A stretch of 64,000 nt of DNA from Isoetes taiwanensis (lineage: Eukaryota; Streptophyta; Lycopodiopsida; Isoetales; Isoetaceae), in contig JAJEKV010000005.1 in the NCBI GenBank assembly GCA_021234155.1, positions 15,846,826 through 15,910,825 of the forward strand, in the 5' to 3' direction. Made by a program: the position numbers and the translations under genes. This document shows, piece after piece, positions 1 to 35,128 of the stretch. Each line of letters opens with the position of its first letter. Within the stretch, counting starts at the first letter, position 1. The notes under the pieces were generated by a model, which did not search any database, was not told where the DNA came from, and saw only the letters and a program-made list of their open reading frames with translations.

Positions 1-628
1 TAGCCTTTAACAAAATAATAATATTGTCAATGGTTCATAAAAATTATGAAGGCTAATAATCTTCATATCAAAGTTGATGTGAACGAGTTCTTGAAAGTTG
101 TATTCAATGCAACTGAGGACAGTTGCATCCGAGAAGGGAAGGAATTGATATGGTTTAAGGTTAACACCTAACAATGAGCTCGGGTGAGTGGCCAATACGA
201 TTATGCTTTAGGCAAAATCATATAGAGCTAGTATACATATCATGATTGGGACAAAAAGCAAAGGCAAATCCAAAGGTGAAGTCAAAGGCAAAGTGAAAGA
301 CAAAGGCAAAGAGTCTGCTAAAGAAGGTTAAACTCAGTTGGTAATATCTCAGCAGTCAAATATTCGATTTGGAAGATTTTCACTTTTCAAAGCCATCCCA
401 GAGTCTAGTTTTTGAATTGGGATGGTACTATGAAGTCTAGTTTCCGAATTGGAGTGGCACTATTTCTGGTTCGTCCGTATGAGGAAGACATGGAAAAAAT
501 AGTAACTGGTTGTCAAAGAAGACTTCTTTACTTCTTCACTTTTGAATCTATAATGCTATCTCTTTTTCCTAGAGCTTCTGCTGATCTTGTCTATTAACCT
601 ATTACTAGAACTAAGAACTAAATTGGTC

Positions 629-792
629 CACGAGTAGGTGGTAACCAAGAATTAGTGGCCCACGAGTAGGTGACAACCACTAAAATGTGAATACCATGAG
701 TAGGTGGTAGACACAAAAACCACGAGTATGTGGTAATCATGAACCAAGGTGGAAGCCCCAAGGAGGTGGTAATCATGAATTGATAATATTTT
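629..792 (+). repeat. Minisatellite, CACGAGTAGGTGGTAACCA type
   Basis: Short units with core CACGAGTAGGTGGTAA(C/T)CA are repeated imperfectly about five times, with spacer words such as AGAATTAGTGGCC and ACACAAAAACC between cores. It is the first of two such blocks in element E. Confidence 0.8.
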
Positions 793-849
793 ACGATGGG
801 GGAATAGCCTTTAGCAAAATAATAATATTGTCAATGGTTCATAAAAATT

Positions 850-1044
850 ATGAAGGCTAATAATCTTCATATCAAAGTTGATATTAACGAGTTCTTGAAA
901 GTTGTATTCAATGCAACTGAGGACAGTTGCATCCAAGAAGGGAAGGAATTGATATGGTTTAAGGTTAAATTTGGGACAAAAAGCAAAGGCAAAGTCAAAG
1001 GCAAAGTGAAAGACAAAGGCAAAGGGTTTGCTAAAGAAGGTTAA
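850..1044 (+). CDS. Short repeated ORF, Lys-rich C-terminus
   Basis: A 64-codon ORF begins MKANNLHIKVD and ends in a run of GKVKGK-type basic repeats. The first 38 or so residues are re-encoded with few changes at about 49 and 2232 in the other two direct-repeat copies, but there the frame closes early after WFKVNT. I do not recognise a family. The long N-terminal match among copies is what repeat duplication alone would give, so translation is not shown; the Lys/Gly tail is simple sequence. It may be a degraded tail of an element protein or chance. Confidence 0.3.
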   Translation: MKANNLHIKVDINEFLKVVFNATEDSCIQEGKELIWFKVKFGTKSKGKVKGKVKDKGKGFAKEG

Positions 1045-1865
1045 ACTCAGTTGACAATATCTCAGCAATCAAAGATTCGATTTAGAAGATTTTCACTTTT
1101 CAAAGCCATCCCAGAGTCTAGTTTTTGATGGCATTATGGAGTCTAGTTTCCGAATTGGAGTGGCATTATTTCCGGTTCATCCGTATAAGGAAGACATGGC
1201 AAAAATAGTGACCAGTTGTCAAAGAAAACTGCTTTACTCCTTTGCTTTTGAATCTATTCTAAAAAAGCTATCTCTTTTTTCTAGAGCTTCTGCTGATCTT
1301 GTCTAGTAACCTATTACTATCCATAAACCCAACTCATGGTGTATCATATTGAGGACTACTAGCTCAATGGAGGAGCTACAACTGGAAGCTGATTGTCAGA
1401 TATGCCTTATTGTCTTTACGTTCCGGCCTAATATTGCTAACTGAGTGGTCCGGTTGGGTTGAGAGCTCTTTTGAAGAAGGTTTCAGCTACTAATTTGTGT
1501 AAAGGTTTTATATTTGTTCAGGTGGTCAGATGAACATCGTATCAATTGGTATCAGAATTTCCTTTGGAACAATGGTTAATGGAACCACTGCCACGATCTC
1601 TGTCGTGATCATGAAGCAGGTCTAGAGTTTTGAAGGACCAACAAAACAAGAACTTAGACAATTTCTCGAGTCTTAACTAAGGTAGTTCTTAAGTTACTCA
1701 TGACATGAGAGAGTTTTGCAGATACACATGCAGATCAATCTAGAGAGTTAGATGCGTAGTTTTTTTTAAAAAGATACGAGAAAAGGGAAGTGGCATTCCA
1801 AGAATTTTGAGAAGTCAAACTTGAGAGCAAACTTCACATTGAATTATGTTTATCCAGCAATCTAC

Positions 1866-2172
1866 AAGTGGTAATCACGAACTACTGTGATGCACGAGTA
1901 GGTGATAATCACAAGTGAATGTGACCCACGAGTATATAGGGTGAACCCCGAGTTGAATTGGTCTACGAGTAGGTGGTAACCAAAAACTAAACTGGTCCAT
2001 GAGTAGTTGGTAACCAAGGTCCACGAGTAGGTGGTAACCGAGAATTAGTGGCCCACGAGTAGGTGACAACCACTAATATGCGAATACCACGAGTAGGTGG
2101 TAGATACAAAAACCATGAGTAGGTGGTAATCATGAACCAAGATGGAAGCCCCCAGGTGGTGGTAACCACGAA
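1866..2172 (+). repeat. Minisatellite, second block of the same unit
   Basis: The same CACGAGTAGGTGGTAACCA-like core is repeated about nine times, a longer version of the block at 629-792. Its second half (from about 2022) is nearly identical to the first block, as expected if it was copied with the long direct repeat. Confidence 0.8.
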
Positions 2173-3613
2173 TTGATAATATTTTACGATGGGGGAATAG
2201 CCTTTAACAAAATAATGGATCATAAAAGTTATGAAGGCTAATAATCTTCATATCAAAGTTGATGTTAACGAGTTCTTAAAAGTTGTATTCAATGCAACTG
2301 AGGGCAGTTGCATCCAAGAAGAGAAGGAATTGATATGGTTTAAGGTTAACACCTAACAATGAGCTCGAATGAGTGGTCAATATGATTATGCCATAGGCAA
2401 AATCATATAGAGCTAGTATATATATCATGATTGGGACAAAAAACAAAGGCAAAATGAAAGGCAAAGTCAAAGGCAAAGTGAAAGACAAAGATAAAGGCTT
2501 TGCTAAAGAAGATCAAACTCAATTGGTAATATCTCAGCAATCAAAGATTCGATTTGGAAGATTTTCACTTTTCAAAGCCATCCCAGAGTCTAGTTTTTGA
2601 ATTGGGATGGCACTATAAATTCTAGTTTTCGAATTGGAGTGGCACTATTTCTGGTTTGTCCATATGAGGAAGACATGGCAAAAATAGTGACCAGTTGTCA
2701 AAGAAGTCTGCTTTACTCCTTCGCTTTTGAATCTATTCTAAAAAAGCTATCTCTTTTTCCTAGAGCTTCTGTTGATCTTGTCTAGTAACCTATTACTATC
2801 CGCAAACCCAACTCATGGTGTATCATAGTTAGCTCGATGGAGGACTACAAGTGGAAGCTGATTGTCAGATATACCTTACTGTCTTTATGTTTCGGCCTGA
2901 GATTGCTAACTAAGTGGTCCGACTGGGTGGAGAGCTCTTTTGAATAAGGCTTCATCTACTACTTTGTGTAAGGGTCTTAACTAAAGTAGTTCTTAAGTTA
3001 CTCATGACATGAGAGAGTTCTGCAGATACATATGCAGATCAATCTAGGGATTTAGATGTGTAGCTTTTTTAAGAATAGAATAGAACAGGGATCATGGATA
3101 CGTGCATCATAGGAAACCACCTGGAGTCTATGGTTATTATGGAGGATAAGCCATCTCCTACACCAGGGCATAATAGGCATTAGACATGTAGGCATAATAG
3201 GGTGTAGGCATTAGACATGTAGGCATAATAGGCATGTCATATACATGTAGTATAATGCAATGTACATTAAATAGGGGGCGGACCCTTAAAACCACAAATT
3301 ACTAATTAACCTAATGTGATGTGCTCACGTTGGCCAATAGAAGAAAGGGGACCGCCAAGAGGGAGCGCATCACACCAAGAATAGGAGGTACAACATTTTG
3401 AGTTATAAAAATCCTAAGGATGTTATAAGTTAACATGATATAAAGGTTATTGAAACTATATATAAGAATGTGAATATAGCTTCACACTCATACGCATATA
3501 ATTAACAACGAAAGTTTATCAGTGTAATAAAGTTTAAGTGTTATTGTGTATATGGTTGTGATATGTCATGCAAGTTCATCCACCTTATCTAATGCTGAGG
3601 ACAACATTATCCT

Positions 3614-3626: not shown

Positions 3627-4716
3627 TGTGGCATTCCCCTAAAATATACGATATAAATACGTATATTTTATGGCCACGTCAACTTACAATTCTACATCAA
3701 TAGACTTGTATGCAACCAATGTGGGGAAGACGACTAAGTTATCTACATAACTTAGCCAACCTAAGGTAAGAAGCCATTTCCACATGGCCTCACCTTATAT
3801 GCGAACCGTCACGTACACACACCTATGGGAGCCAAGTGGCATTCATGTAAACCCTAACATATAAAAAGGCTAAACCCTAAACCTTAGCCACTTTTGGCTC
3901 CACCAACCTCAGGTCCACTAGTCACGATTAGAGCTCCGACTCAAAGACCGTCTTCGACAGCCTGAGTTGCAGCAGCAGAGGAGGATCATCTTCTCCAATC
4001 ACTTGTTAGAAATGGATAACCAGAGAGTTAGCGGTAGCACATCAGGGGCAGGTATTTTGAAAGTAGAGGCATTCTAGAACCTATTGTTCTGAACATGAAC
4101 CCTAATCAATGAACCCTAACTATAAGTTAGATGTATGTAATTAGGATTAGTTGTTATTCTCATTTATTATCATGATTATGTTGATATGATGTTGGTTGAA
4201 CTCACGTTTGCACCTCTTGGGAAAGGGTAGAGACCTAGTAGCCACTAGTAAATGATGCTTCTAGTTTAGACCCATTAGTTCCCATTATTATACAGCCTAT
4301 AATAGAACCCACCTGGCTACGGAGGCTATGGAGTGAATGAGCACCATATAACGAGGTCAATGACAAAGTGGAGGGAGGTCCATGCTGAGCGCGGCTACTG
4401 GGGACCTATAGCAGGCTAGGCTTGTAGTCGGTCACTTTGTGTGGGCCGGGTATGAGTCTGACACTTCCTGGATCAATGGTGTTGCCCTGACTCTCAAGAG
4501 TTGCAAGTGTCGGCTTGGCTCTTGTTTTGGGAAGTTCAGTCGGGTATGGACGTGTGTCTCCACGATCCTTTAGCCGCCCATGGAGCCACTGCACTCCTGG
4601 AAGGGGAGATGCAACCCTTCCTACCTCATCGGATCGGGGAGGTGCAACCCGGAGTAGTCCCATTGGGTGAGACCTTGAGATTACGTCTCCAAGAGGGTTA
4701 CAAATATGATAGAGCA
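3627..4716 (+). mobile_element. 3' LTR of element E, first part
   Basis: The LTR begins TGTGGCATTCCCC just after the purine tract and shares blocks with the LTRs of A and H read in reverse (for example the segment about the strip GGGGAGATGCAACCC and GGTGCAACCCGGAGTAGTCCCATTGGGTGA). It is cut at 4716 by insertion of element D; the rest resumes at 41141. Joined length before duplication is about 1.56 kb, close to the 1.6 kb LTRs of its relatives. Confidence 0.8.
3849..3880 (+). promoter_or_regulatory. LTR promoter: TATA box between two telo-boxes
   Basis: CATATAAAAAGG (3859-3870) is flanked on both sides by AAACCCTAA telo-boxes (3849-3857 and 3872-3880). Telo-boxes are known plant promoter elements of translation and cell-cycle genes. 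The location about 230 bases into the LTR fits a U3/R boundary. Confidence 0.65.
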
Positions 4717-6203
4717 TGTGATCGCCCAAAGACGATATACCTGCGCCAAGACGATATCAGATCAGAATTGCGCCGCGATAACGCCATCCCAATTGACGGT
4801 AATGACGATAGCCAAGCAAGTAGTGCCCTAGGGGGCAACTTGCAAGTGTGTGCACATTATGAATGTGTACACTTTAACCACTAAATATTAAGTGGGCATA
4901 CCAAGGGTCGTTGGAAACCCTATAACCCTAACTGATAGCCTATGTAAGGCAACCAAACCCTAACTTTCCATTTTTGTCCACAGCCCTTCCGAGCTCCATT
5001 TCGCGCGCTCCAAGAGTCAATCTCGACTCCCGAGATCTGTCTGAGCAGTCTAGTTTGTCAGCTTCCCTTTCCGACTGCATCTTCAAGCAAGACAGCGACA
5101 TGGAAGCATTCAAAGCAAGCCAGGGATCAGGTATTTTGCCTCCTAGACATAGAATGAGTAGGTTTAGCCTATTGAATTGCCCATAGCAGCCACATAGACC
5201 TCCAGATAGCGAGCTATAACTAAAGAACCTAGCTTCTGTGATGTAGATTAGATATTATTCTTTAGTTCTTCGATGATATGGATGTATTGATGATCTCTGT
5301 GGACTCATTGTATTGGGAAGGGGGGTAGAGGCCTAAAGCCAAGTAGTTGATGCTCCTAGCTAGTCCTCTTAGTGCACTACTAAATTTTGGCCTGTGTACA
5401 AGAAACAAACCCCGGGTTGTGGGTGGAGGGACCGTGACCGGCTTACAAGGAGGCTCATGTCCCTCTCATGAATTGTCCCTCCGTAGTAAGGCCTATCGGG
5501 GGACTACAAACTAGATCTAGATGCTACGCCCGCTGCGTGTGGGCTTTTGCATGGGTTCGACACTCTTGGGGTGTTGTACACCTTCCATGGAGTTCAGTCG
5601 AGTACGGGCAGTGGCCCTCTAGTCGCCTTGAGTCAGCATGCTAGCCTCTGGTGGGAGAAATCCCTACTTGCCCCATCGGGCCGGGAGATGCAACCCGGGA
5701 ATAGCCCCTTTGGCTATGCATCCGGCGGGCTACTGATCCAGTCCCAAGACTCCGCCAACTTACTCTACAAAGTGTGCATGTGGGAGGTGCGGATGGAGCG
5801 GACTACCCAATTGCCATGTTCCTTTGCCCAACAACTCCAGTGTTATTACTCCTGGCTGTTTGACCTCTGGAGACCCAAACTTGTCAGTCCACCCCTGTGT
5901 CTGAGCCTGGGTAAAATTCCCTTATGTGATGTACTGATCTTTGTCTATGCAGATATGTGACAAGCCATCCCTCGAGGTGGACATATGTTATTGATGTATT
6001 TGCTACTAACATGTATATTACGCTTCCGCAGCTAGGTAGGCCCTGAGGGAGACAGGGTAAATGACCCCTTCATTCTTCCCACTGGAACACTTCAAGGTTG
6101 CAGTGATACGTGGAGGGCCCTATATTAGCATGGAGCTGGTATGGGGGATGAACCTCCTGGTTGTATATGGTGAGTGCACCGTATATGAGTAGGGGACGTC
6201 ACA
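4717..6203 (+). mobile_element. 5' LTR of element D
   Basis: It starts TGTGATCGCCC and ends GGGGACGTCACA, directly before the primer site. Its partner at 39643-41140 is collinear (shared blocks such as CCAAGCAAGTAGTGCCC and TTCTTTAGTTCTTCGATGA), with disagreements concentrated in CG-rich positions. Ends carry the short inverted TGTGACG/CGTCACA seen in all gypsy LTRs of this window. Confidence 0.9.
4941..4963 (+). promoter_or_regulatory. Candidate LTR promoter of D with telo-box
   Basis: TATGTAAGG is a weak TATA-like word and is followed by AAACCCTAA at 4955-4963. The pair has the same order and spacing as the clearer TATA/telo-box pair in the LTR of E. Confidence 0.4.
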
Positions 6204-6204
6204 G

Positions 6205-6216
6205 TGGTATCAAAGC
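6205..6216 (+). other. Primer-binding site of D (initiator Met tRNA)
   Basis: TGGTATCAAAGC lies one base after the LTR. It matches the TGGTATCAGAGC complement of plant initiator methionine tRNA at 11 of 12 positions. Confidence 0.85.
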
Positions 6217-6219
6217 AAT

Positions 6220-6238
6220 GTTCTTGGAGACCAAGAGC
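6220..6238 (+). promoter_or_regulatory. Leader stem-loop of D after the primer site
   Basis: GTTCTTGG AGA CCAAGAGC can pair as an 8-bp stem with one weak pair and a 3-base loop. The same stem sits next to the primer site in A (28641-28660) and B (37227-37245). A role in RNA dimerisation or packaging is inferred from position only. Confidence 0.6.
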
Positions 6239-6411
6239 AAAGTACTGCCCATGCTCCCAGTAGTACTAACTTGATAGAATCCTCAAACCTCGAAAAAAGT
6301 GGGAATTTTTTTTTTCATTTTTGTAGTACATGCTAAGCTAGTAACAGTTAGTAGAATTGAAAACCAAGTAAACTAAAAAAAGTTCAACTAAAATTTGACC
6401 AAAAGTAGAAA

Positions 6412-6480
6412 TGTCTCACACTATGCGCCAGAGCACCAACCTAAAATTGAGGTCGAGCCCTGGGCGCACAATGTGAGACA
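6412..6480 (+). repeat. 69-bp inverted-repeat hairpin, first upstream copy
   Basis: TGTCTCACA at the left end is complementary to TGTGAGACA at the right end, and inside these GCGCC pairs with GGCGC around a core ACCAACCTAAAATT. It lies about 380 bases before the TATA box of the H3-like gene. Its order and spacing relative to the primer site match hairpins in element B. Confidence 0.85.
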
Positions 6481-6623
6481 TTGGCCATAATCACCTTAAA
6501 ACTTGATGAATTTCAATAAGGTAAGATGCTAGATCGAGTTTTAAGCTAAGAATTAGCTAGATTTGTATACTAGACCCCTAGGAATATGCCTAGAAATCAC
6601 ATAATTTAGTCTAAAATGCACAA

Positions 6624-6692
6624 TGTCTCACACTATGCGCCAGAGTCTTGATCTAATTATTAGCTCGGGGCCCCAGCGCACACTGTGAGACA
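6624..6692 (+). repeat. 69-bp inverted-repeat hairpin, second upstream copy
   Basis: It has the same TGTCTCACAC...TGTGAGACA ends and inner GCGCC as the copy at 6412, with a more diverged centre. It starts 212 bases after the first copy and ends 101 bases before the TATA box, which suggests a promoter-proximal array. Function as an enhancer or RNA structure is an inference. Confidence 0.85.
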
Positions 6693-6793
6693 AGTGGCTT
6701 AGAAAACTCTGAAGTAAGCATATGTTATAGGTTAATAGGTGCTTTGGCACATGAGAAAGAGTAACTTAGAATTTGACCTAAAATTGCCCAAAC

Positions 6794-6802
6794 TATAAAT
6801 AG
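6794..6802 (+). promoter_or_regulatory. TATA box of the H3-like gene in D
   Basis: TATAAATAG lies 97 bases upstream of the ATG at 6899, giving a plausible 5' UTR of about 70 bases. The identical word stands on the minus strand at 36645-36653 before the H3-like gene of element B. Confidence 0.7.
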
Positions 6803-6898
6803 ACCTAGACCCCCCTCCCCCTCATTTGTAGACTTCTTGTCTAGAGATTTGCTCCGCGCATCGAGGCAATTTTTTTGGGCGCCCGACCTCCGATCGAC

Positions 6899-7451
6899 AT
6901 GGCGCGCACCAAACAGACCGCTCGACTTCCTCGACAAGGCGAAACAGCCAGAGGCCAAGGAGGCCGAAGAAAACAAGAAGCGGAAGGGCAAAGGCATGGA
7001 GGAGCCCAAACGAAAGATGAAGAAGACCCCGAACGTCAAGGTAGTCATCAAGGAACGGCCAGCCAACCAGCCAGCCTCCTCCGATGATTCAGACGACGAG
7101 GACTTCAACCCAAACCTGGAGGTAGGGAGTTCCTCCAAGCCAACAGAAGGGGACCAGCCAGCCCAGGAGTAGGGATCCCAGGGATCAACGGAAGCACTGG
7201 AGGAAGAGGACATTGGATCTCCGGGTTCAATGGATGAAGAGACCCAAGAAGTGTACGAGCAGATAGATCGGGAGATACAAGAAGAGGAGAGGGCAGAAGG
7301 AGAGCGGGAGGCCAAGGTTCAAGAAGCAGCAGAGCAGAAGCTGGTCCAACATTTTGAAGACTCAATAGCCTGCACAGTACACGCCAAGAGAGTAACTCTA
7401 ATGAAAAAAGATATGCACTTGGCCAGTCATATTAAAGGAGAACCTTATTAA
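6899..7451 (+). CDS. Histone H3-like protein with charged linker (element D)
   Basis: The ATG at 6899 starts MARTKQTAR, the exact first nine residues of histone H3. After one frame change the downstream frame is open from before 6920 to 7451 apart from a single TAG at 7170-7172. It encodes a Lys/Glu-rich linker, an acidic SSDDSDDED stretch, a Glu-rich coiled segment and then VQEAAEQKLVQHFEDS, CTVHAKRVTLMKKDMHLA and IKGEPY. The last 43 residues match the H3 alpha2-L2-alpha3 region at about 25 positions by eye (QEAAE, FED, HAKRVT, KD, LA). The N helix, alpha1 and L1 are missing. The words LMKKD are as in some centromeric H3s. It has its own TATA box. Whether the frame break and stop are real or sequencing error is open. 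Confidence 0.85.
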
Positions 7452-7586
7452 TTTTGTAAATCATAAATTTTGTGAATAGTGTTTTAGAGTAAATTATAAG
7501 TGTATGAAGTTACTTAATTAAGTTGAGTTAGCAATTAATGGCTTTTGTTTTAGCCAAATTGGTCATATTTAGATCGATTAGGAGAA

Positions 7587-7654
7587 TGTCTCACATCAGG
7601 CACCGTAGCACCAACCTAAAATTTAGGTTGAGCCGTGGGCGCACAATGTGAGAC
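7587..7654 (+). repeat. 68-bp inverted-repeat hairpin, downstream copy
   Basis: TGTCTCACA pairs with TGTGAGAC and the core CAACCTAAAATTTAGGTTG is itself a perfect palindrome. It follows the H3-like gene and precedes a TATA-like GTAAATAG (7845-7852), so it stands to ORF2 as the first two copies stand to the H3-like gene. Confidence 0.85.
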
Positions 7655-8052
7655 CTCCAAACTTTGAACCTTCATAACTTTGAGCTACAGAGCTCCAAAT
7701 TGCCTGAAATTTGTTGCAATAGGACCGTTAGACAGTCTAGAATCCATTTATGATGTCAAATTAGGCTAGAAATGTCAAACCCCAGCTCAAAATGACCAAA
7801 ATTGCTCAAACCCTTGAATTGTTTTTCCAAACTGTGGGTTGTTTGTAAATAGAAGCATACCCCATTAGTATCTCGCAAGTATTGCTTCTCTCCTGGGCGA
7901 TGCCTTACTCCTAGATAGAAGTGCTCAAGAACACCCCTTTGTTATAGTCATCTAGGCCTCAAAGATAGCAACCCAAGTTCAACTGTTCAGACATCACCTC
8001 ACCATGCCAAAGGCATAAACCTTGACCTAATTTCGTGTCCTTCTAATAGAGT

Positions 8053-10410
8053 TTGACTTATATAGCCGCCACATTGACACTCCCTATTGCCAGGATACCT
8101 AGAAAGGAGCTAGAGTCTAGAGCTACCCAAGTCACTCCATGTGTAGAGATTGGACCCCCTTCCCCCCTCAAAACCAACATTGCTAGGACCTTAGAGTATG
8201 CCTCAAACATCAAACGAGTAGAACAGGACACCACCGGCCTATCATCAATCTTCATCAAATGGGAAGAATATTTGGTAACCAATGGCATCAAGAATCTTCT
8301 AGATGTCAACCTCCCCCGCTACCACGCCCACGAGCTCACATCGAAGAGGATCTCGACGCCTTCACCAACTCGACGCATATGAGTTTCAAATGGAAGAACG
8401 CAAGGCAGCAAAATACAAAAGTGCGAAGACGCCAGACATCGATGCCGCTAGCATCATGAGCTAGGGCCGGGGCATAATCTCCGTCGAGGAGAGAAGTCAT
8501 GGCGACATAGGAGCATATAGAAACCGGAGGGAAGACCACCACGACCTTGCAGGCCAGTAGCTCAAGCAAATGTCATGCAACGTCAACAAAAGGAGCAACT
8601 AAAACTAAAGGTCGACTCAGACGAAGCTTCCAGCTCCTTGCACCAGCAGAGAACTTTCATCGGTTCCAAAAAGTAGGAGAACATGAGGGGAGGAGATGCA
8701 TATCGGGAAGGAACATCTCCGACTTGAAGGCCTATATCAGCATTAGGGGCAAGATCAAGGAGGAGAATATTCTGCTCGAACAAGAAGAATTCCGGACTGT
8801 AAATACCTAGAAACCAAAGGAAGGACGACTTTTCTATATCCAGCCAAGGAGGCGAGACTCGAATGGATAGGACCCAAAGGATCTTCGGAGGAGACGACCT
8901 AGCCAGCAGGTACAAATCACGCAGATGACCACACTTCCAGGCACAGGAGAAGCACCTCGGAATGAAGCAAAGCCCAAGCAACAGGAGTCCCACTCAGAAA
9001 TTCAACCTGCGGAGGAATGACAATGCCCGCCACCACCCACGATCTCGAGCTTCAAGACATTCAAGAATGCCCGACTGCAACAGCCAGGTGATCCTACTCA
9101 AGCGATCAATGGCACCGCACATCGGCAACCTTGCAACGACACACCGCATGTAGGGACGTTGAGCGGTCGCCGCATTCCTTATGATGGACATACACATTAA
9201 GGATGGCGCTTAGATCAGGAAGCTCCTTCACTTCGACTACCAAGTGAGGAAGCAAGGAAGCACAACTATAGCCCAAGATCAAAATGGAAGAGCAAGTACA
9301 AGGGAGAAACGACCAGAGGCCAAGCAAACCTTCGACTCCAAACACTTCCGCGTATGCCCCCAAGTAGAAGACCGCCATTCACCCAATGTCAGAACAAGAG
9401 ACAACACCGGTCATGTCAAGATCATCAGCGCTGCACCAGGACATCGTCAGGGGCAACACTACCTCTTGTGGCAGCGGCAACACTTGATGAACTTATGACA
9501 CGAGTGGCCTCAACAATAGAAGGAGGAACGACCCGACATCAAAGAACCAACTAAGAAGGCAACATCTCGACGACCATAATTCCACCTTGTGGTAATATAG
9601 GGTGATGCGCTATGACACGCGTATTAGATGGAGACGCACTTACGAAAGGCACCGCGACGAGGAGATATGCCTCCAACAACTAGGTGATGGCTTAGTCAGG
9701 TACTCCTACCAGTAATTAGAAGAGAAGAAGCCGATCATATCCCCGACATGTGGGACATCAAACGCCCAAGGTAGAAGCATTCGACACCTTAACGACAAGG
9801 ATAGCAACTGAAGCACCTTCGACAAAAAGAGAGTTCAAGATAATAGCCAGGCTATTCAATGACAAGAGTATATCTAAGGCAGGTACTTCTTCAACTCAAG
9901 GGTCAAGATGCGTAGATATAAGGATCTATCATCACGACAACATAGCCAGCAGGGAGGAGAGGCATGATGCTTTACTTGCCAGAGAGACCGACATGCATAG
10001 AGGGACAAAGGTCAGGAACTGAAAGCTAGAGAAGTGCTAGCAACCGACTTCTTCCACGAGCTCCCTAGAGGCAACAGGAGGATCAAAACTGACGAGCACA
10101 ATCAAAGCCACCGGAAGGTACCTCAAGATAAGAAGACGGCATAGCAGTGTGGAATGTGACAACGTCCAAGCCATGTGATCGAGGGGATCAAACAAGTAAG
10201 ATTGGAAGCTCGATGGAGAAGCAACTAGGCGAGCCGAGCCGATGACTTGCACGCGGACTTGCATGCAACTTGGTGAACCCAAGGATCGACGATTCAAAGA
10301 ACAACTGCAGAAGAGAACAACTCCAGAGGAGTATAGCCAAAGGAATCGCGCACAGCCTCAAGAGACGCCTCCAAATTCGATTGATAGGAATATTCCAAGA
10401 GTTTAAATAA
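8053..10410 (+). pseudogene. ORF2 of element D, unrecognised, broken
   Basis: A 109-codon open stretch from 8053 (YIAATLTLPIAR, PCVEIGPPSPLKTN, IFIKWEEYLVTNGIKNLLDV) aligns loosely with the start of ORF2 in element B (DIEATINATLLPR, PCVGYFAPNTALKS, LQLEEVVVPYLGV). After that no long frame persists, although the region stays purine-rich and coding-like to about 10410, where IFQEFK then TAA resembles the KKFQE end of the B copy. I do not recognise a family. It follows the H3-like gene and the third hairpin. Many frame breaks would have to be errors for it to be functional. Confidence 0.45.
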
Positions 10411-10489
10411 CTAAGAAAGGGGGAATCTCTAGAATATAAAAGAATAATACATGTAAGGTACATCTAAAATAAGAATTATAGTAATCAAA

Positions 10490-11322
10490 TAGCCTTTTGC
10501 GACAAACAGTGCAAGTTGGTGTTGTTGAAAGGGTGCCATGGGACTGTCATGAAAATATTCACAAAGGCAAGCAATTTGTCGAATCGAAGATATCTCCTTC
10601 TTTAGCACCACAACCCCTCCAGTTGCCAGATGGGTGGCACCTACATGTTCCACAACCCACTTTGTGTCGTACATGGCGATGGCTTTGGGATAGGTTGCTC
10701 CACCCTAAAGTCTACTCGTCTTTGGGTGGCGGGTTATCCACAGTGCTCCCTCGTTTAATGCCTTTTGACATCGCTATGATCCTCGATATCTACCAGATGC
10801 CCTTTGTCTTCGGACGTTGAGACTCTTGAGCATTGTCTCTTTGATTGTCCCGAGGTTCAACCAACAATGTGGGTCCTGGCTACAAGGTTTGTTTAATAAA
10901 GACATTGGACTGCCGATGCATCCTTTTTAAGTCCCTATCCCAACGCATGGCCTCCGGCTAAACAAAGGGCATTTCATCTTGGTTCCGGCTCCTATGGTCG
11001 ATATGGGAGCGCCGCAGACACCACATCTTCGGGCATTTATTCATCCGCGTACGCGTGTTATTACGGTGGCCCGTAAAAAGATATTGACACCTATGAGTGT
11101 TCCTCCCTTGACTCGAACCCATGGAACGATGACGGATTCAGTATCTTCGAATTGATTCTTATCATTAGTCTCCTATTCTGGAGTAAGTACATTGTGCTCC
11201 AGGCTCGTGCTCCTGTGGCATCTTTGTGTGCTTACACAGTTAGATGAGACATGTATATTTTGTACTTTTTCTCTGATTAATAAACTTTTTGGCTTTCGTC
11301 CTTCAAAAAAAAAAAAACAAAA
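10490..11322 (+). mobile_element. 5'-truncated LINE fragment with poly(A) tail
   Basis: The segment ends in a run of A (about 11306-11322) after AATAAACTTTTTGGC, as LINE copies do. Near 10800-10860 shifted frames give ETLEHCLFDCPEVQ-like words, the C..C/ET..H...C zinc-binding signature found after reverse transcriptase in plant LINEs (zf-RVT). The upstream coding part and the 5' end are missing. The left boundary is uncertain because I found no clear target duplication. Confidence 0.6.
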
Positions 11323-12450
11323 GGAATTGTCATGATGACAAAACTTTGTGGTTTAGAATCGTTCTAACTAAGTAGGTAACCCATAACTATATTGAAATAA
11401 ATGATAACATAATATGTGCATCCATCTTAGATGGTTATATATGTTAGCTAAGGCTAGTAAATTAATGCGCTAAGTAAGAAGCGTATAACCTCTTAAGGGG
11501 GTATGTTAGCTAAGGCTAGTAAATTAATGCGCTACGTAAGAAGCGTATAACCTCTTAAGGGGAGAGAATAGATATGACGTTGTGTACAACGTCATTGAAG
11601 GGGTGCAGGACCATTTTCTTTTCGAAGAAAGTGGGGGGGCTCAATCTTATGATTGAACGTACTTGCATCAAATTGACCGACCTGCAGACTAGAGTTCCCT
11701 CCGGCAATGGTCGAAGCGAATAGAGCATAAGATAGATAGATACCTTAGTGCTCAGGAGGCCTTCAACGTGCGAGACTGACGTAGTAGCTAACTACAACAA
11801 TGAAGTGGAGCAAAACTATGGGAGCAATGCAACGACCAAGGCATCTCCAAATTACTCCACGCCGGCTCAATGGGTGGATGCGTTCTAGCCTAGGTAAGGT
11901 GTGCGCATGCATTATAAGCTTTAATGTGTCTTATTGATAAGTTAAATATAGATCCTAATAACTGCATAGAAATTGCCGTACATATATGTATCATAGGGAA
12001 ATAAGTTAAATAACAATGATAATGTGAGGTAGCATGTTAATTAATCCTTCGCAAGGATGCAATTCCTTCCAAGGATAGCTATATGACCTCGGGGTCCTTA
12101 TAAATATAAATAGAAAATAGAATTCAGATATACTTAAGTGCATCTTAGGGTTATACTTCCAAGGGTAATGCAGGAGGTAAGGAAGAGAATAAGAAGCACA
12201 TCTAATTCTTGTGTATGATAATTAAAAACCTTGTCTATGTAACAAGAGGTCTGAATCAGGGTTATTGTTTAAATAATCGCGATCTAAAAGTCGTTAAATA
12301 TTGTAAAGCTTAGAGTAAATATAATAGTACTATCGGAAGTAATGTATCCAATACTATGATAATGTTAATTCATAAATATTACCTTAGCGTAATTATGTTA
12401 ATCGCATGCATTAAAGGAACCATCAGAAATCATGCAGGTTTCAAGTTAAT
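11323..12450 (+). other. Non-coding interior of element D
   Basis: No frame with a recognisable product is present. The stretch includes a 62-bp tandem duplication at 11440 and ends with TTAAT, the target site into which element B was inserted. By position gag-pol should lie here in a complete element, but no zinc knuckle, protease, YVDD/YADD or integrase motif is seen on either strand. Confidence 0.6.
11440..11562 (+). repeat. 62-bp tandem duplication
   Basis: The unit beginning TATGTTAGCTAAGGCTAG and ending CTCTTAAGGGG is present twice head-to-tail (11440-11501 and 11502-11562) with one clear substitution (GCTAAG/GCTACG). It lies in the non-coding interior of D. Confidence 0.9.
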
Positions 12451-14043
12451 TGTGACGACCCCTACTCCTTATACGATGCCCACATCGTACTCGAAGGAGG
12501 AGCATTCCCCCTGGCAGCTGCCTGACAGGGGCCATCCACCTGACTCCACTCCCATGGGGGCAGAGCCAGCACGGGAAGAGTGGATGTGTCATTCATCCGT
12601 CTTCCATCGGATCGACCTATCTGCGGAAGCGTAACAAACAAACGTGAGCACAACTAATAATATACAACACAATCACCATAACAATAGCAACATCACAGAG
12701 TCAGCAATACCTTCATAACAATAATACAAAGGAAAGATCCTACCCATGGCTCTGGACTCAAGGGGATGACCCGACGGCTAGGCCTCCGTGAGTTCATTGC
12801 GCATGTAATTCATGGCAATGGATTTGGCGGGCATAGAACATGGCTTAGGGTAGTCCACTCCATCCGGGCCTCCCCCCACACACTTTGCGCAGAGTAGGCC
12901 GAAAAGTGTTGGGACTTGGCCAGTAGCTCACGGGTGAGTAGCCGAGGGGCTACTACCGGGGTTGCATCTCCCCAACCCCGGCGAGGCGTGAAGAGAGCTG
13001 CCTCTCCTCCAGGGTATCCATGCTCATCGCAGCGCTAGAGGGCCACCGCCCTTATTCGACTTGAACTCACCGGAAGGTCATATCCACCACCCCACGAGTG
13101 TCGAGCTCATGCCTTGCCCACACGCGGTGACAAGCCATTAAGCCTAGCCAAAGAAAGACCCATAGGCTTTACTACCGTGAGGGGTCAGTCCGGCACATGA
13201 GACAAGTTCCTCCTATCAACCGGGCTTTGCCCCTTCACCCACGCCTGTGGGCTCCCCGTGGCACGGGCCGCAATTATGTGGGGAACTAAGGTGCTATGCT
13301 AGGAACATCTTCTACAATGCCTTTTAGGTCTCTACCCCTTCCCACAACAAGGAGATCACAGAGGGAATACATGCAATATCACGTAATCGTAGATAGAGAA
13401 TCATATCAATCTATCTACTTAACATCCAATGTTAGGTTCATTCGTTAGAGTCTCGATCTAGGATCTACAAGGCTTCCCATGTGAGATGATCTAACATACT
13501 AAATCGCATATTGCCATGCCTAAAGACGGTTTTGCACAAATGTAACAACTAGATACCGCCCCTTGGCTTGCTCCCCGATCCTTGGAAGGCGTCCATGCTC
13601 CCATCTTGTCAAGACATACCGCTACTCAAAGAACTCATAGTAAATCCGACTTTTGAACCCCGGTAATGCGATTTCGAGCCTTACCTTGGCCGAATTGGCC
13701 CAGAAAGCCCTAAATGCAAAGGAGGAAAGGAAGCTCTAGAAAACCCTAATTGGCAAAGTGAAAGGAGAGCTAGGGTCTAGGGTTTTAGCCCTTATATAGA
13801 CCCTATCTAGGTTAGGGCATCCACATGGGCAAATGGCTTTAAGCCATTTGGAAATGGATGAACAAGGAACCTTTTTGTTGTGTATGTTTAATTACATACC
13901 CAACATCCAAGGTTGCCCCTAGGTGCAACCTTTAGCTCCTAGGTGCAACGTTGTCCTACTCTCAAGTACATGTCACTTGTGACATGTAATGCGGACGGGC
14001 AAGATAATATACGATGTTAGGCGATATTATGCCGAACGCCACA
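12451..14043 (-). mobile_element. 3' LTR of element B
   Basis: Read on the minus strand it starts TGTGGCGTTCGGC and ends GGGGTCGTCACA. It agrees over long AT-rich blocks with the 5' LTR at 37260-38853. On the minus strand TCTATATAAGGG (about 13790-13801) followed by AAAACCCTA forms the promoter. The next bases outward on the interior side are the purine tract. Confidence 0.9.
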
Positions 14044-14990
14044 TTCTCCCCACCTTGACTTGATGTCGCCCTCGAAGATCACGCCAGCCTCCCCACCTTG
14101 GGTACCGTGATATCCCGCAATTACAACACTTACATATCCATATTATATTAATCACCTCGTAATATTTATAGTTTATCGTAATTGTACTATGGTGAGAGGC
14201 TCTTTCGCCCTCTACTTAAGAATCGATTATAAACAAAATTGACATCAATTATAGCTTTAAGGTTTTAACTAAAACTTCCTTGCCGCCTCCTCACAACACA
14301 TTATGGCAAAACTATGCTTGTGAGTTCTTGTAGCTTACCCTCCCCGCCGCCGGCTCTTCTAGTTGCCCTGCAAGGGATGTACGCTTACATTAGTACATAT
14401 TTAATTATTATTATAAGGGTTGGTTGTGAGGGAACCACCCATTAAATACAATTATATGGATGCAAAGGTATATCTCTTCTAAGATAGGAAGATTATGTTT
14501 CTCCCATCCTGGCCAAAAAGACAAATTCTATATGCCTATATGCCGCCATGCCTACACCTCTAGTTGCCCAGTGGAGGATATCCTTCCCGTGATATGGGGC
14601 GTGAAGGATAGATTCCTCCTATCAAAACATATATGGGGCTAAAGGTGCTTTTCCTATCAATGCATCTCTCAATGACCTCCTTTCTCTCGAGGTCGCCTAC
14701 TTCCGTGGGACGGTGACTTCTAATCTACCTTCCACTCAAACAAGCGAAACGCCGGTCATGCCTACATTGACATTACACCATGCCCTAGAGAGCACCGTAG
14801 TGGTCTCATCATCGGTAACAACGATGCAACCCATGCCTAGCATAGGGTCGCATGATTAGCCTTAGCTACACATGCTTAAATCCAAACCCAAATCGACATG
14901 CCCGAGCCGATTTCTTTGGTTCGATGTCGACTACTTTGGATGACGAAATCTCTTTGCATTGCTCCATAAACTCGGGTATCGCTTCTTAAG
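14044..14990 (-). other. Purine tract and 3' untranslated region of B
   Basis: The minus strand reads AAGGTGGGGAGAA (14044-14056) directly before the LTR, the expected purine tract. The rest has no convincing ORF. It matches, in the opposite orientation, the end of element D at 38859-39642 (shared words around the conserved GTGGTCTCATCATCGG and CATGCCTACA). Confidence 0.7.
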
Positions 14991-15004
14991 ATCCTTTCAA
15001 GTAC

Positions 15005-17180
15005 CCACGTGGCGTCTTCCATCGGTAAGTGCTTCCACTTCACAAGGTATTGGAGGAATTTTGACCTTCTTGTCTTCTTATAAGATCTATTAAGAAGGAC
15101 TTCCTAACGATTTCAATATGCTCGTCCGGCCATTTCTAAAACTCATTTGTCTCCAATACTTCCTGGGTTTGGGGTGTGCCTCTTTAGCAAGCTTACGTGG
15201 AAAACCTTATGTATCTTAAGATGTCTTTGGCAAGTCCAACTTGTAGGATTGGTTACCTACTCTCTTCTCTTCTCAAGGGTCCAACCCATCTTGGAGCAAG
15301 CTTCTTGCAATTGCCGATCGCGGAGCTTGGCCCCTTTGACTTTGATCTTCAACCACACTTTGTCTCCCACTTCAAATTCTCTTACCATCCTATGCTTGCT
15401 TCCACGATGCTTTTCTCACTTTGCTTGGCTGCAAGGAGATATCCTCTCACTTCCTCCACCAAGTCTTGCATTCGAAAAGCATCTGCTGGAGACTTCCACC
15501 TTGGACACGTGGTTGTGCCAAGTATCCGGGTAAGACACTGACACCGTAATTAATCATAAAAGGACTCATCTCGCGATGACTCCCTTTGGTGTCAAGTAGG
15601 CAAACTCTACTAGGTAGATGAGATCATCCCACTTGATTGCTTGTTCCATACATAGCTTCTTAACATATCTTCGATGATCCCGCTTTGTCCTCTCCATCCC
15701 ACCATCCTGTTTGGGGATGATATGCCGTGGCTCATCCCAAGCTCACGGATGGTGGTGAATAGGTCCCGCCAAAGGCACTCATAAACTTGAGTCTCTATCC
15801 CAGATTATCTCCTTGGCATACCATGGAGCCTAAAAAATCTCCTTAACAAATAGGTTGGCTGTGGTCTAATGTCAGACTGTTGTCCCGACCAAGGCTAAAG
15901 TGTGCCATCTTTGACAACTTATCTACTACCACCACCAAGGCATCTTTGCCCCTTTGCCGCTCTTGGGAGTCCCCAGAATAAAATCCATACTTATCACCTC
16001 CCACTTAGCATTTGGCACCTGCAATGGTTCCAAGGCACCGGGATCCTGAGTCTCCGCTTTTGTCTCACGGGGCATATCCGCACTCTCTAATATATATTGC
16101 TATTTCCTTCTTCATGCCGCCAATAATAACCGCTTCTAATCTTAAAATATGTCTTCATGAACCCCGCATGCCCCGCTATGGGACTATTGTGTATCATTCA
16201 AAATAAGCTTTCTAACTTATAAGATTTTGGTACACACAATTTGTTTTTATAATATAGCAAGTTTCCTTCCTTCTTGTAGTGCCTCCTAACATCTCCCTTT
16301 CCTTGTCGGTCCTGGCCTCTTTGGAAAGGCTCACCCAAACTTCCTTTGAAGTCGAGGTCCGCTTAATGTTTCCTCAATCTTCTTGCCAAACTCACTTACA
16401 AGTGTTGATATGGCGCTACAATGAATTCTCGCTTGCCAATGGCTTCCTCGAAAGGGCATCCGCAACCACATTGAGCTTCCCCGGCTTATAACTTATCTCA
16501 AAGTCATATTCTTCCAAGAATTCCATCCATCTCCTTTTGCCTCAAATTAAGGAGCTACTGCGAAATATATATTGAGGCTTTGATGATCCGTCTAATCGGA
16601 ATTTTCTTCCTAATAAATAATGCCTCCAAATTCTTAAAGCCCTTACTATAGCCAGGAGCTCCCTCATCATTAGGTAAGCGGGCCAGCTCTCATTCAACTT
16701 CTTGGAATCATAGGCCACTACTCTTTCCTCCTCATGAGGATCAAGGCTTTTATTTGCTATCACTGCTAGCATCGTTGCTACAAGCTTATCTTTGGTCGGA
16801 TCACGGCACAATACCGCGGCGCCCGTCGTCAAAGCTTCCTTGGCTCAAATGCTTTAAGGCCTTGTTTTGCCAATGGGCTGCCCAATCTTTTTATCTTCCC
16901 ACCTTTTGAGATCAGATTAATGGCGCCTGCTACCTTGGCAAAATTTTTGACAAATCTTCTATAATAGCCTTTGCTAGCCTAGGAAGCTCCCCGACTTCAT
17001 CAGATTCTTTTGGTGCGGCCAGGTAGATCACGGCTTCTATCTTGGCGTAGGTCGTGGAAATGCCTGGCTGCCGGATCACGTGCCCCAATACTCCACTCTT
17101 TCCGATTCGCAGTGGCGCCGATAACCCATGAAGAGTTGATGCCTTCTTAACTTTTCAAGCACCTTCCTCAAGTGTTTGGG
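15005..17180 (-). pseudogene. pol: Pol C-terminal half of B: RT end, RNase H, integrase, chromodomain
   Basis: The minus strand encodes, with several frame breaks, the end of the reverse transcriptase from HLRKVLEKLRRHQLF (next to the A insertion), RNase H (16542-16832: DKLVAT, RVVAYDSKKLN, LLAIVRALRIWRHYLLG), a weakly legible integrase core, the conserved integrase tail LAPRW.GP (about 15300) and a clear chromodomain FLQYLVKWKHLPMEDATW (15005-15061). Chromodomains in this family bind methylated histone tails and steer integration. The frame breaks are dense in CG-rich stretches. Confidence 0.8.
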
Positions 17181-18830
17181 TGTGGCGCCCTCAAGCTAAA
17201 CATACATACTTCACGGGCTGACGTACACTCGGCGAGAAATCCCCATCCCATGCGGAACCGCATGGGCCTTCGTCTACCCCCGCTGAGGTGACTCTTAGTG
17301 CGGGGAGGGAACACGAGAAGGTGTCTTGCGGCGCCCTTCCCTATGGGCTCCTATAATGGTGGCGATAACACGTCGAGAACTAGCATCAACATATACAAAT
17401 ACTACCTCGGAGGTAGTGCATCGCACATCAACCAATGCAAAGATGATAATCACTTAATAGTAAAACATGAGAGCTCCTACCCGCCTCCGGACTCGTAGTG
17501 GAGGATGACCTGACCAGCTAGGCCTCAAGATAGAATCGAAGTCATGGCAATGGCGAGGGCTGGCATAGAACAATGGCTAGGGTTGACCACTCCATCCGCC
17601 CCTCCCCCTGCATACTTTGCAGATGGGCTAGATCAGGCTCGATAGGACTCTAGCCTTCCTGATCACGCAATCCCATGGCATCACCCATCGGACTACTCCA
17701 AAGTTGCATCTCCCCTCGTCCGGTATGAGGCGTGGAAGGGTTGCATCTCCCTTCCTGTGGTCCTAGAGGTGCCGTGGGCTAGAGAATCGTGGCGACCTGC
17801 CCATAAGTACCCATCAACCCCCAAAATGAGAGCCAAGCCAACACTTGCAGCCTCGAGGCGTGGCAACACCATTGCCCTCCTGTGAGGTGTCCACCCATGC
17901 TTGCCCACACGAAGTGACCCACCATAAGCCTAGCCCACTATGGGATCCCCCAAGCCCCCCACCACCGGGCGGATCCTCCCTCCACTTTCCCTCTAGCCCC
18001 CCAAGTTATCCGGTGTTTGAGTCATATCATAGCCTCAATAGCCCCGGGTGGGCTCCTATGCACAAAGCCGCAACTAATAGGAACTAAGGGATCTACTCTA
18101 GGAGCATACTACATATGGCTCTAGGTCTCTACCCCTTCCCAATACAAGAGGAGCAAACATGATCAACCATCATCACATAATCATCACATCATGAGAATAA
18201 TCATAAGAAGAACATCTTAACCTAATCATACAACCAACTAATAGTTAGGGTTCCTTTGATTAGGGTTCAAGATGTTGAATATGGGTTCTAGGATGGCTCT
18301 ACTCTAGATACAAAAATACTAGCACATCCGAATGCTAATCCCGTGATGAGCTATCACAACTACTATCCTACATACCGCCTCCCGATGCTCTCCCTCCAGA
18401 TCCCGGGCGCCCATGGTCTTCGACTCACAAGCCAGCCGTTCCCACCCAAGAACGAGTCTACCTCATTGGCTGCCGCCGCACCAGCCCTATGCCATTGGTC
18501 GAATCCATGTTCAAAACGGGTTTCAACAAGTAGGTGAGTCTCGGGTGCTAGGGGCGGGAAAGAGGTCTAGGGTTAGGGTTTATGCCTATATAAGTTAGGG
18601 TCCACCTAGGATGCCACGGGCACCAATCGGTGAGTCCCGTGGCGGCGCCCCAATAGGTTAAGGCCACGTGGATAATGGCTTAATCTATGGTTGGCTAAGT
18701 TATGAGAATAACTTAGCCATGCCCCCTAGTGCCACAATCTATGGTATACAAGGCTATGAAGATAGACTTGTATGGTGATTTTATCCGAATATACACGCAT
18801 TTATATGGCGATATTCCCCTGACCGCCACA
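17181..18830 (-). mobile_element. 3' LTR of element A
   Basis: Minus strand start TGTGGCGGTCAGG, end GGGCGCCACA. It is collinear with the 5' LTR at 28677-30294. On the minus strand CTTATATAGG (about 18586-18595) and the telo-box AAACCCTAA (18573-18581) form the candidate promoter. Confidence 0.9.
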
Positions 18831-23253: not shown

Positions 23254-24049
23254 TGGACAATCATGTGTTCTAAGGTGCCACGGCCGGAAGCACCTAAACA
23301 TAGCTTTTCAATGCATTCCCCGTTTCTTTCCTTCGCAGACCGTTTAGGAGACGCTTTAAGAGCCGCGCCTCGATGCATTCTCCCTGGGCTTACGGGTCCC
23401 CAAAAAGCTTTGCTCACGACTTACCTTGCCGCCGACTCTCGATGGTGTAGCCGCCGGGATTGCTTACCCCCTGATATTGTCCCTCGAGCATCGCCTCAAC
23501 TCTACCCCTCAAGGTTGGTCGCTTTTATACCTGAGTTGCTGGTGCCTCTTCCAAACTTATAGCTTTATCTTCGGCCTGCGCAACTGACCTTGGGTTGATT
23601 GCTCTAACAAGCCTCTTGATATTGCTGTTCAACCCCTCAATGTAAGTATCCACGGCTTGCCTCTCTGAGACTCCAGTAACATGCAGCCTGAGCCTCATAA
23701 ATTCTTCTGTATACTTAGCCACCGATAAACTACCCCGATTCAACTCAGAAAACTCACACTGGCTCTACTAGTATGAGACCTTGGCACATAGTGCTTGCGT
23801 GAAAGCCTTGCCAAGGTCTTAAACCTGCAGTTGTTCCTCTTCAGCTTGTTGGATTTAGCATATCCCTTCCACCGGATCCTTGCCGGTCCAATAAGGTTAG
23901 CTGTAGCAACTTTCCCTATGTCCTTGTCTTTCATACCGTATGAGTTGCCAAATTCTTCCATTTCATCAAGCCATGCTTCAGCCTCCATGCCCGACCGCCT
24001 TTCCCCGAACTCGCCGAAGCTTCCTTTGTCTTCCATACATTGCTCATAG
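23254..24049 (-). pseudogene. gag: Gag of element A
   Basis: On the minus strand the frame starting near 24036 gives MEAEAWLDEMEEFG, KDKDIGKVATANLIGPARIRWKG, typical of plant gypsy capsid (Retrotrans_gag). It continues in another frame at 23743-23525 with AKYTEEFMRLRLHVTGVSE and YIEGLNSNIKRLVRAINP, and ends in a CX2CX4HX4C zinc knuckle, CFRCFRPWHLRTHDCP (about 23301-23254), for RNA binding. At least two frame changes are needed. Confidence 0.75.
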
Positions 24050-24718: not shown

Positions 24719-26300
24719 CTATTCAATGGCCTCCCGAAGCCCGAAGAAGTTCTTGACATCCCCGACCTGAGGCCTTTGCCGAGGGTTGCGCAAGATGTTC
24801 CTCGTTGATCTTCCTTCAAGTGCTTGGGCCATCTCCTCGTTCCGGAGTTCTCGGTGTCGTTGCCGCTACCACCGAAAGTGTTGCATCCCTCGTGTGCCCT
24901 CTCGCAAAGTCGAGGCAATGGAGCTTGACCGCCTGCTGTTGAAAAGAATGATGTGATCGGCATGGGCGATATATCTTCAAGTGCTGCCCGGCCCGAAAGC
25001 GCTATGAGAAGTGCCACGGATTCTTCCCCCCTTGGACTGAACTCCTTGTGGAAGACTATCATTTGCCCCTTGGCCGAGGGAAAGATAGTAGCGGCGTGGC
25101 GCCCTTCCCTCCCCTCGCCCACATCCGGTGCCCTTCCTTTGAGCCGCCGTACCGTAGGCATCCACCGCCATAAGGTCTTCATGATCCCTCCACATGCCGG
25201 TTGGCGTTGTCAAGTTAATCTTCTTTGGACCCTTCCCTCATGCTCGCTCGGTCGGGTCGGCTTGAGCTTGGGCCCTTCCCCGTTTGTAGAGTGTGCTGTA
25301 TCTGCTGGAACTCCTCCTCACGAGATGATAGGCTCCTGCTTTGCCGATAGATCTCCCTTATCTGGCTGATAGGTCGCTATATCCGACATTGTCTCCCCGA
25401 TAAGAGTGTCTCTCCAGCCACTCCCTTGGAATCTCTGGTATGAGTAGTCGATGATGTCTGTGCTTTCCCGTGTGCTATCATGCCCAAGAGCTCGCCGCCG
25501 ATTCGAAGACCCTGTTCTCGATGATGGGACAAATTGAGGATGTCATTTGCAAAATGTACTCCTCCCGCCGATGACTATCGCCAAGGCAAGGTCGGATGCC
25601 GACCGTGGGTTTCCAGAGTCGCTTCACGCCGTCGCCATGCCTCGGACATATCTCCGCATTCTTGTTGCCTCCCTCGCTCTCCCATTCTCGGTTCTCGCTC
25701 CCCTAGCCGCCAGAGTCTTCATGGATCAGAGAGATGGTGCCCCCGACGCCGTGTGCAATATTCTCAGAGGGCTTAGGACTCTATATTCGTGATTTGATCC
25801 CGGGTCCTGACTTGCATCAAGTGGCTTAAGTCTAAGGGCTGAACAGGGGTTCCCCTACTTTGTTGATTGACTTATAGTGCATGAAGAGGGCAAGGGTCGC
25901 CCGAAGCCGAAGGTACCTATGCCTATTATGTGTCGCAGTCATGTAACGGGCATGGTCCTAGTCCTATCCCATAGTCGCTTGCCTCGATCCCCGCTAGCTC
26001 CTCACCTAAGGCTTGGGTCGGTGTCTCAAGAGAAACCCAATTCCTCCCCTAGGAGGCAGCCTAACTTCCCAAGGCAGGACCTCGCTGGTCATATTGGCAC
26101 ATAATGTCTGTGGTAGTAGGGTGTTCTAGTCAAAGTTGCGTGAAGATCAAACAAGTGATCAAACACGAGAGAAGGCTTGATCTACCGGAAGCACATGGAT
26201 ATGGTCGGCAGCATTGTACCATCTCTCAAAGTTGCCGGGCCATTGAGCAGAAAGGGTGTAGAAAATGGCTTGCAAAGATCGCTGGAGGATCGTAAAATGC
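24719..26300 (-). pseudogene. ORF2 of element A, unrecognised, broken
   Basis: On the minus strand this region follows the second TATA box and ends with FFGLREAIE and a TAG at 24719-24721. A word in the middle, IVFHKEFSPRGEE (about 25090-25020), parallels KLVIHRQFSPRGEE in ORF2 of element B, at a similar distance from the end, which is the evidence that both are the same gene. No family is recognised. Several frame breaks, mostly in CG-rich sequence, separate the pieces. Confidence 0.5.
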
Positions 26301-34720: not shown

Positions 34721-34793
34721 CCACTCACACAAAGGCGCCAGGTGGGATGGGTTTTGCAAACCGAATGGGTTGGGGCGACTCTGTGAGGGGTGG
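34721..34793 (-). repeat. Inverted-repeat hairpin, nearest to ORF2 of B
   Basis: CCACTCACACA and CTGTGAGGGGTGG are complementary ends, with inner GGCGCC near the left arm, GGGGCG near the right arm and the core TTTTGCAAACCGAATGGG. It is one of three copies between the H3-like gene and ORF2. Confidence 0.85.
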
Positions 34794-34927
34794 GCTGCTT
34801 TGTTTAGGTCACTAATGATGCTAAACTAGAGAACTAAAGACATAATCCTGGATATCTCATCCGAGATAGATAGGATTGAGCCTTCACTAAGCTATTTGGG
34901 CAAGTTGTGGTGGAGTTTGGGGTTCCA

Positions 34928-34996: not shown

Positions 34997-35128
34997 AGCT
35001 CCATTTGACTTCGGCGTTAGCCAATTTGGACAGATTAGGGGTCAATTCCCACTAAGCGGGATGAGTTAGGTCGAATAGTATACCTACTTTCTGCATTTAG
35101 GCAAGATTTGGCACCAAACCATGCTCAA

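Follow-up and report, generated by a model that had tools for sequence, protein, structure and literature searches.

Three related LTR retrotransposons, nested in a 64-kb window of Isoetes taiwanensis DNA (the whole stretch analysed here), each hold, by sequence comparison, a decayed gene of the histone H3 family, read in sense shortly past the primer binding site. In each of these elements, called D, B and E below, an ARTKQ-type N-terminus is followed by a charged stretch and by what aligns as the H3 fold, which is complete only in B. Intact copies number 0 of 3, and all three come from this one window. The arrangement suggests that elements of this kind once made their own chromatin protein. 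The best explanation overall, which we consider somewhat probable, is a single capture kept by selection as an accessory chromatin protein of the elements.

The copy in element D was noticed in a first-pass annotation, which read an ATG opening MARTKQTAR as the H3 N-terminus; H3 comparison and an N-terminal pattern confirm an exact match at 6899–6925 (+). Further along, 25 of 42 residues at 7317–7442 are identical to the α2–α3 end of H3 (tblastn of H3, E 1.5e-12). The histone profile search proposed with that annotation returned a significant match: the stop-free piece 7173–7451 (+), which holds the acidic linker end, the H3 α2–α3 end and the stop codon, matches Pfam PF00125 (Histone) at 6.1e-9, above the gathering score, and PDB H3 chains at 1.5e-10. 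The annotation had also treated MARTKQTAR and the H3 end as one gene; they do not form one open frame. Copy D is broken today: the MARTKQTAR frame differs from that of the linker and C-terminus, with a frameshift between 6925 and 6936, and the charged linker (6936–7169, +; 22% K+R, 22% D+E), in a frame other than that of the ATG, runs into an in-frame TAG at 7170–7172. The acidic linker could inflate the score of D; a low-complexity artefact was rejected on the 7317–7442 match and on copies E and B, all independent of the linker. A protein search with D alone as query found relatives in 0 of 123 candidates, and in an IMG/VR scan 14 stretches fitted a pattern, with 0 confirmed.

Comparison of H3 with the whole window revealed two additional loci, both on the minus strand, in B and E. 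With the H3 fold as query, a scan that tolerates frameshifts and covers both strands scored 139 for D (7245–7442), 92–102 for B (35349–35614) and 92–97 for E (27038–27139), with only 34–38 at the next best places in the window. Depending on frameshift cost, the maximum with this query was 48 or 60 in 60 one-strand shuffles and 52 or 54 in 100 two-strand shuffles, and a chance match for the three loci was rejected on these scores. With full H3 as query, other places in the window reached at most 55, and D's own N-terminus 54–55; full-length alignments of the copies cross several frames and thus flatter D and E. The proposal that an H3 was captured by a retroelement and remodelled is supported, and gains strength from these two further copies, which occupy the same place in two other elements. 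The competing case raised with it, a single-copy host H3 pseudogene, fails: such a copy would lie outside a repeat, whereas three copies in three elements were found.

The copies differ in how much of the fold they retain. In E, the α2–α3 end (27038–27139, −; H3 comparison, scan, PDB and shuffles) matches Pfam at 4.6e-5, just under the gathering score, and PDB H3 at 8.3e-6. The B piece alone is weak (Pfam 0.023, best histone chain 0.04) and is outscored by a ribosomal L37e profile; this copy extends, frameshifted, from α-N to α-3 at 35349–35716 (−), the fold-only match covering 35349–35614. Tested alone, α-N/α-1 scores 43 in B, which none of 300 shuffles attains; the scores of E (24, reached by 128 of 300) and D (23, reached by 140 of 300) are no better than chance. 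Since B keeps α-N/α-1, the captured gene had the full fold. The idea that a linker replaces the N helix and α1 thus fits D, and also E, where α-N/α-1 is unrecognisable, but not B, where it is still present.

All three copies have an ARTKQ-type start, which in E and B is interrupted by an indel. The N-terminus of B (36512–36543, −) reads ATGGCA, an indel and then TKQIAR, and that of E (28067–28101, −) reads MA, a one-base shift and TKQTS, both by alignment and N-terminal pattern. A relaxed pattern (ATG-GC, a few bases, TKQ[T/I][A/S]) matches only three sites on the two strands, 6899 (+), 28101 (−) and 36543 (−), each of the three folds being preceded by one of them, and 100 shuffles yielded no match; as the pattern was drawn from these three sites, the evidence lies in its exclusive placement, not in the count. 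No reading has K at position 9 (TARL in D, TSEG in E, TARQ in B), each being read next to a frameshift. The retained N-terminus, together with the unrecognisable α-N/α-1 of D and E, is what would be expected of a histone mimic, whose ARTKQ end baits readers of the H3 N-terminus and whose fold is a remnant. We judge this distinctly unlikely, as the best-kept part in all three copies is α2–α3, not the tail.

Self-comparison and end mapping place E inside B inside D, three related LTR elements. D (+) has its 5′ LTR at 4717–6203 and its 3′ LTR, with a polypurine tract ahead, at 39643–41140; the pair is 85.6% identical (5′ LTR against 39657–41141), and the target-site duplication agrees at 4 of 5 bases (GAGCA/GAGCC). 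B (−), inserted in D, has LTRs at 37260–38853 (5′) and 12451–14043 (3′) that are 88.7% identical, with an ATTAA target-site duplication on both sides (5 of 5). E (−) splits the reverse transcriptase of B, a domain named by eye from tblastx; its LTRs at 28677–30294 (5′) and 17181–18830 (3′) are 86.9% identical, and its target-site duplication agrees at 3 of 5 bases. The primer binding site of D, TGGTATCAAAGC (6205–6216, +), is presumably of the tRNA-iMet type, and E (TGGTATCAGAGC) and B (TGGTATCGAGC) have similar motifs behind their 5′ LTRs, all three being TGGTATC-type. LTRs, primer binding site, polypurine tract and target-site duplication, the features of an LTR retrotransposon, were thus found.

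The H3-like start lies in sense 0.58–0.72 kb past the 5′ LTR in D, B and E, and it follows the primer site in 3 of the 3 related elements whose 5′ end was found in the window. The 5′ ends of two others are missing from it: F (pol from 61.2 to 59.2 kb) and the fifth element G, whose 3′ LTR runs from 3626 until D interrupts it at 4716. H3 is highly expressed and its processed copies are common, so host H3 retro-pseudogenes might have inserted independently into the elements. We consider this highly improbable: all three copies are in sense and about 0.75 kb or less from the 5′ LTR, for which a rough estimate, taking three targets of 1 kb each within 128 kb of strand, gives ~1e-5, and the copies have non-H3 residues in common and, in D and B, flanking hairpins. 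Random pseudogene insertion was dropped on position and shared residues.

Several other repeats were observed in the window. A copia element at 53635–56193 is seemingly split by a short LTR element (repeats 53635–53999 and 55605–55969, 96.7% alike) that holds a zinc-knuckle gag-like frame, assigned by eye. A LINE with long open frames occupies 48661–52520 (−); its upstream frame is endonuclease-like by eye, and the closest named matches of its reverse transcriptase frame (48664–50286, −) are from Calypogeia, Riccia, Taxus, Cryptomeria and Adiantum, at ~37–49%. A tandem duplication of ~455 bases, 98% identical, spans the end of the D 3′ LTR and a flanking older LTR (41078–41990), and interleaved long direct repeats, 86–98% identical by blastn, fill 1–3100, upstream of the G 3′ LTR.

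In tblastx, the similarity between E and B extends through gag-pol into the chromodomain, with domain names given by eye. The chromodomain of B, at the end of pol (14876–15103, −), matches Pfam PF00385 at 8.9e-8. Downstream of its H3-like gene, E has a gag-like frame (23528–23764, −; Ty3_capsid 1.2e-5, Retrotrans_gag 5.8e-5) and a protease-like frame (7.5e-4), all of these Pfam matches being below the curated cut-offs, and the related element F contributes RNase H (2e-31) and integrase (2.9e-10) matches. Judged by gag-protease-RT-RNaseH-integrase-chromodomain content, E and B are of the Ty3/gypsy chromovirus type, with the H3-like gene upstream of gag. Between the two, a coding-like stretch with an FSPRGEE motif is alike in E (~24740–25059, −) and B (~32981–33295, −); it has no Pfam match in the frames tried and is possibly a second accessory gene. 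The interior of D has no tblastx match to the gag-pol of B, E or F, and Pfam found no family up to 0.1 in 10 of its frames and DUF1244 alone (0.079) in a set of 3 frames; from the H3-like gene to the B insertion (7700–12450, +), several short frames without a Pfam match were observed. D and B have a 3′ untranslated part in common (64.9% over 840 columns), and D looks like a non-autonomous relative of these elements because no gag-pol was found in it.

The three genes have departures from canonical H3 in common: Q102, L119 and H125 in D and E, and A109 and K131 in D and B, with none for E and B in the stretch compared. Fold residues retained in D and B include C110, H113, R116, D123 and L126, which we take to build the H3–H3′ contact in nucleosomes. 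From N-terminus to fold, the stop-free stretches are 44% charged in D, 35 and 53% in E and 34–58% in B; 343 stretches across the window average 20%, and their 95th percentile is 33%. The linker DNA is purine-rich (12–14% T) and yields charge when read in several frames, which makes the charged linker partly an effect of composition. No alignable similarity was found between the linkers of the copies, and stop-free length from N-terminus to fold was not significant (p 0.085, 0.145 and 0.225). We read the derived residues and charged linkers in common as a sign of one capture, long kept.

Differences between the copies fall mainly at third codon positions. At positions 1/2/3 they number 9/8/23 in 34 codons for D–E (one-sided p 4e-5), 42/25/49 in 66 codons for D–B (p 0.001) and 16/13/24 in 34 codons for E–B (p 0.007), in protein-guided alignments across frameshifts, which favour matches at positions 1–2 and bias the test towards this result. 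We read the pattern as that of a protein probably under selection during divergence of the elements, the copies decaying once they had inserted. A captured message could instead have been a passenger, taken up once by template switching and carried along as the elements copied themselves, without serving them. Gene capture of this kind is known in plant LTR elements, usually in one or a few copies, according to the available part of PMC7264820; all three copies here are broken, and D and E have no recognisable α-N/α-1. The LTRs, however, are far diverged (D–B ~68% alike across roughly half their length; D–E barely aligning, over only 34–135 bases), yet the H3 scores are 139, 97 and 102, N-terminus and position have been retained, and third-position differences are in excess, in a test biased as described. 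We therefore hold a mere passenger to be rather unlikely.

In D and B the gene is flanked by an imperfect hairpin, CTCAC..GTGAG, with 8 occurrences in the window, 3 in D, 5 in B and no other match; the pattern was drawn from D, and shuffles gave an expected 1.59 and a largest count of 5 (0 of 100 reached 8). By pattern search and folding, two of those in D form leader hairpins before the H3-like gene (6415–6477 and 6627–6689, +) and one lies just past it (7590–7652, +). The five of B (span 34724–37043, −; pattern search) lie upstream (36977–37043, 36769–36827) and downstream (35132–35195, 34931–34991, 34724–34787) of its gene; none was found in E by the same search. They are possibly packaging or translation signals. 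With Rfam, 4700–8400 matched miRNA families twice, weakly (E 0.066 and 0.11) and far under the gathering scores, and these matches were set aside; the element hairpins probably resemble precursors.

The first-pass annotation had raised a centromeric origin, and on this point the copies disagree: several residues of D are like those of plant CENH3, E fits canonical-type H3 better and B has traits of both. H3.1 outscores three plant CENH3s and human CENP-A in all three copies, with 139 for D (the others at most 120), 97 for E (91) and 102 for B (95). A profile built from D, E and B was searched against 627 candidates, of which 63 pass 0.001; all 63 have a histone domain and 9 are named plant centromeric H3. 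Coverage of the query is 42% at most, which leaves every protein match short of the whole linker. D prefers some of these proteins over H3.1 (59.7 bits), among them a Lactuca protein, CENH3-like by sequence (65.5). MPKD-type (13) and non-P (34) proteins, with 17 of 64 unclassified, give mean scores of 119/133 for D, 98/88 for E and 93/99 for B, and maximum scores of 139/154, 112/97 and 130/116, in a comparison that is not neutral, as the candidates had been selected for sharing words with the query.

The captured gene may have been CENH3, its protein allowing the elements to mark or find centromere-like chromatin. In favour are the LVQ.FED, the LMKKDM (K for P in MxKD) and the G-x-P-Y end (GEPY, where the CENH3 type has GxPW) of D, which resemble plant CENH3-type proteins; LLIP.APF (LLIPVAPF) and HF in B; the ARTK start with a long variable tail in many profile matches; and the absence of the P of MPKD from D's five best matches of 63. 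MPKD is nonetheless kept in E and B, the five proteins of the 63 that match E best, and the one that matches B best (130, followed by 116), are MPKD-type, H3.1 outscores the plant CENH3s and CENP-A compared, the matches were chosen by shared words, and pol ends in a chromodomain. We see a CENH3 origin as doubtful. In comparison with plant CENH3 itself, the ARTK start, variable tail, H3 fold and several residues of D are alike, whereas MPKD in E and B and carriage by an LTR element are not.

Our favoured explanation, a single capture kept by selection, would proceed as follows. The gene would have been captured once, in an ancestor of D, B and E, when a host message for H3 or CENH3 was reverse-transcribed, and kept under selection as the elements diverged, the present copies having decayed after insertion. 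Its product would be an accessory chromatin protein, first translated from element RNA, whose H3-like fold would join with H4 and either become part of nucleosomes or cover newly made cDNA. Silent transposons of plants bear H3K9me2, which is looped with CHG methylation, as described in the available part of PMC9033089. A tail with the K4 end and without K9 would let its chromatin escape the K9 methylation that silences elements, and an element-made K9-less H3 could locally break the H3K9me2–CHG methylation loop. The main variant is a CENH3-like role in target-site choice. As α-N/α-1 is at chance in D and E, these two copies may code for half a fold, which weakens the nucleosome idea and argues, for them, against a full role in nucleosomes. 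Chance-level α-N/α-1 in E, and a best match of B that is MPKD-type, lowered our estimate for this explanation, for a replacement histone and for a CENH3 origin a little, and raised those for a passenger, pseudogenes and a mimic. A more specific proposal, which we offer tentatively and think less probable, is that the LTR lineage encodes a replacement histone (K4 end, no K9, charged linker, H3 fold) placed on element chromatin or target sites to escape silencing by K9 methylation or to set a CENH3-like address, in parallel to the fungal case below.

The nearest precedent is an H3 gene in fungal hAT transposons; for the LTR-retrotransposon setting we found no report of a histone gene among titles and abstract openings, in a literature with few subscription papers and bioRxiv preprints, so that any priority is tentative. 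The available parts of PMC9289625 and PMC7264820 name no histone gene in LTR elements, and a term search of the available part of PMC13317346 gave 0 occurrences of 'histone'. hAT DNA transposons of Pyrenophora tritici-repentis carry H3L, with tail insertions and a fold that fits neither H3 nor CenH3 completely, and the gene is retained in a short non-autonomous hAT form (PMC3538342, available part); H3L of Mycosphaerellaceae hAT elements is described as old and mostly truncated in the part available of PMC6710886. Like D, B and E, these are transposons carrying an H3-family gene. They are, however, DNA transposons with terminal inverted repeats and a transposase, in fungi, whereas the carriers here are plant LTR retrotransposons with the gene just past the primer site and, in E and B, gypsy domains. 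Phalaenopsis Gypsy elements with a 2-ODD (m6A demethylase) ORF likewise show a plant Ty3/gypsy lineage that kept a captured host-type gene, although an enzyme and not a histone; 15 extra domains were retained in the same screen, which took in 121 angiosperm genomes, with no histone among those named in the available text (PMC9289625). Chromoviruses (Tekay, Galadriel, Reina, CRM) have the LTRs, primer site, gag-pol stretches and C-terminal chromodomain in common with these elements, but the literature found, seen in part, describes no H3-family gene for them.

Transposons are usually viewed as objects of histone marks, whereas an element supplying its own H3 would act on the nucleosome itself. 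If true, the present case would mean, together with that of the fungal hAT elements, that a tail-modified H3 has been acquired repeatedly by transposons of unrelated kinds. It would make testable the evasion of silencing, or the choice of sites, by selfish elements through histone replacement, and would bear on the origin of, and conflict over, variants such as CENH3.
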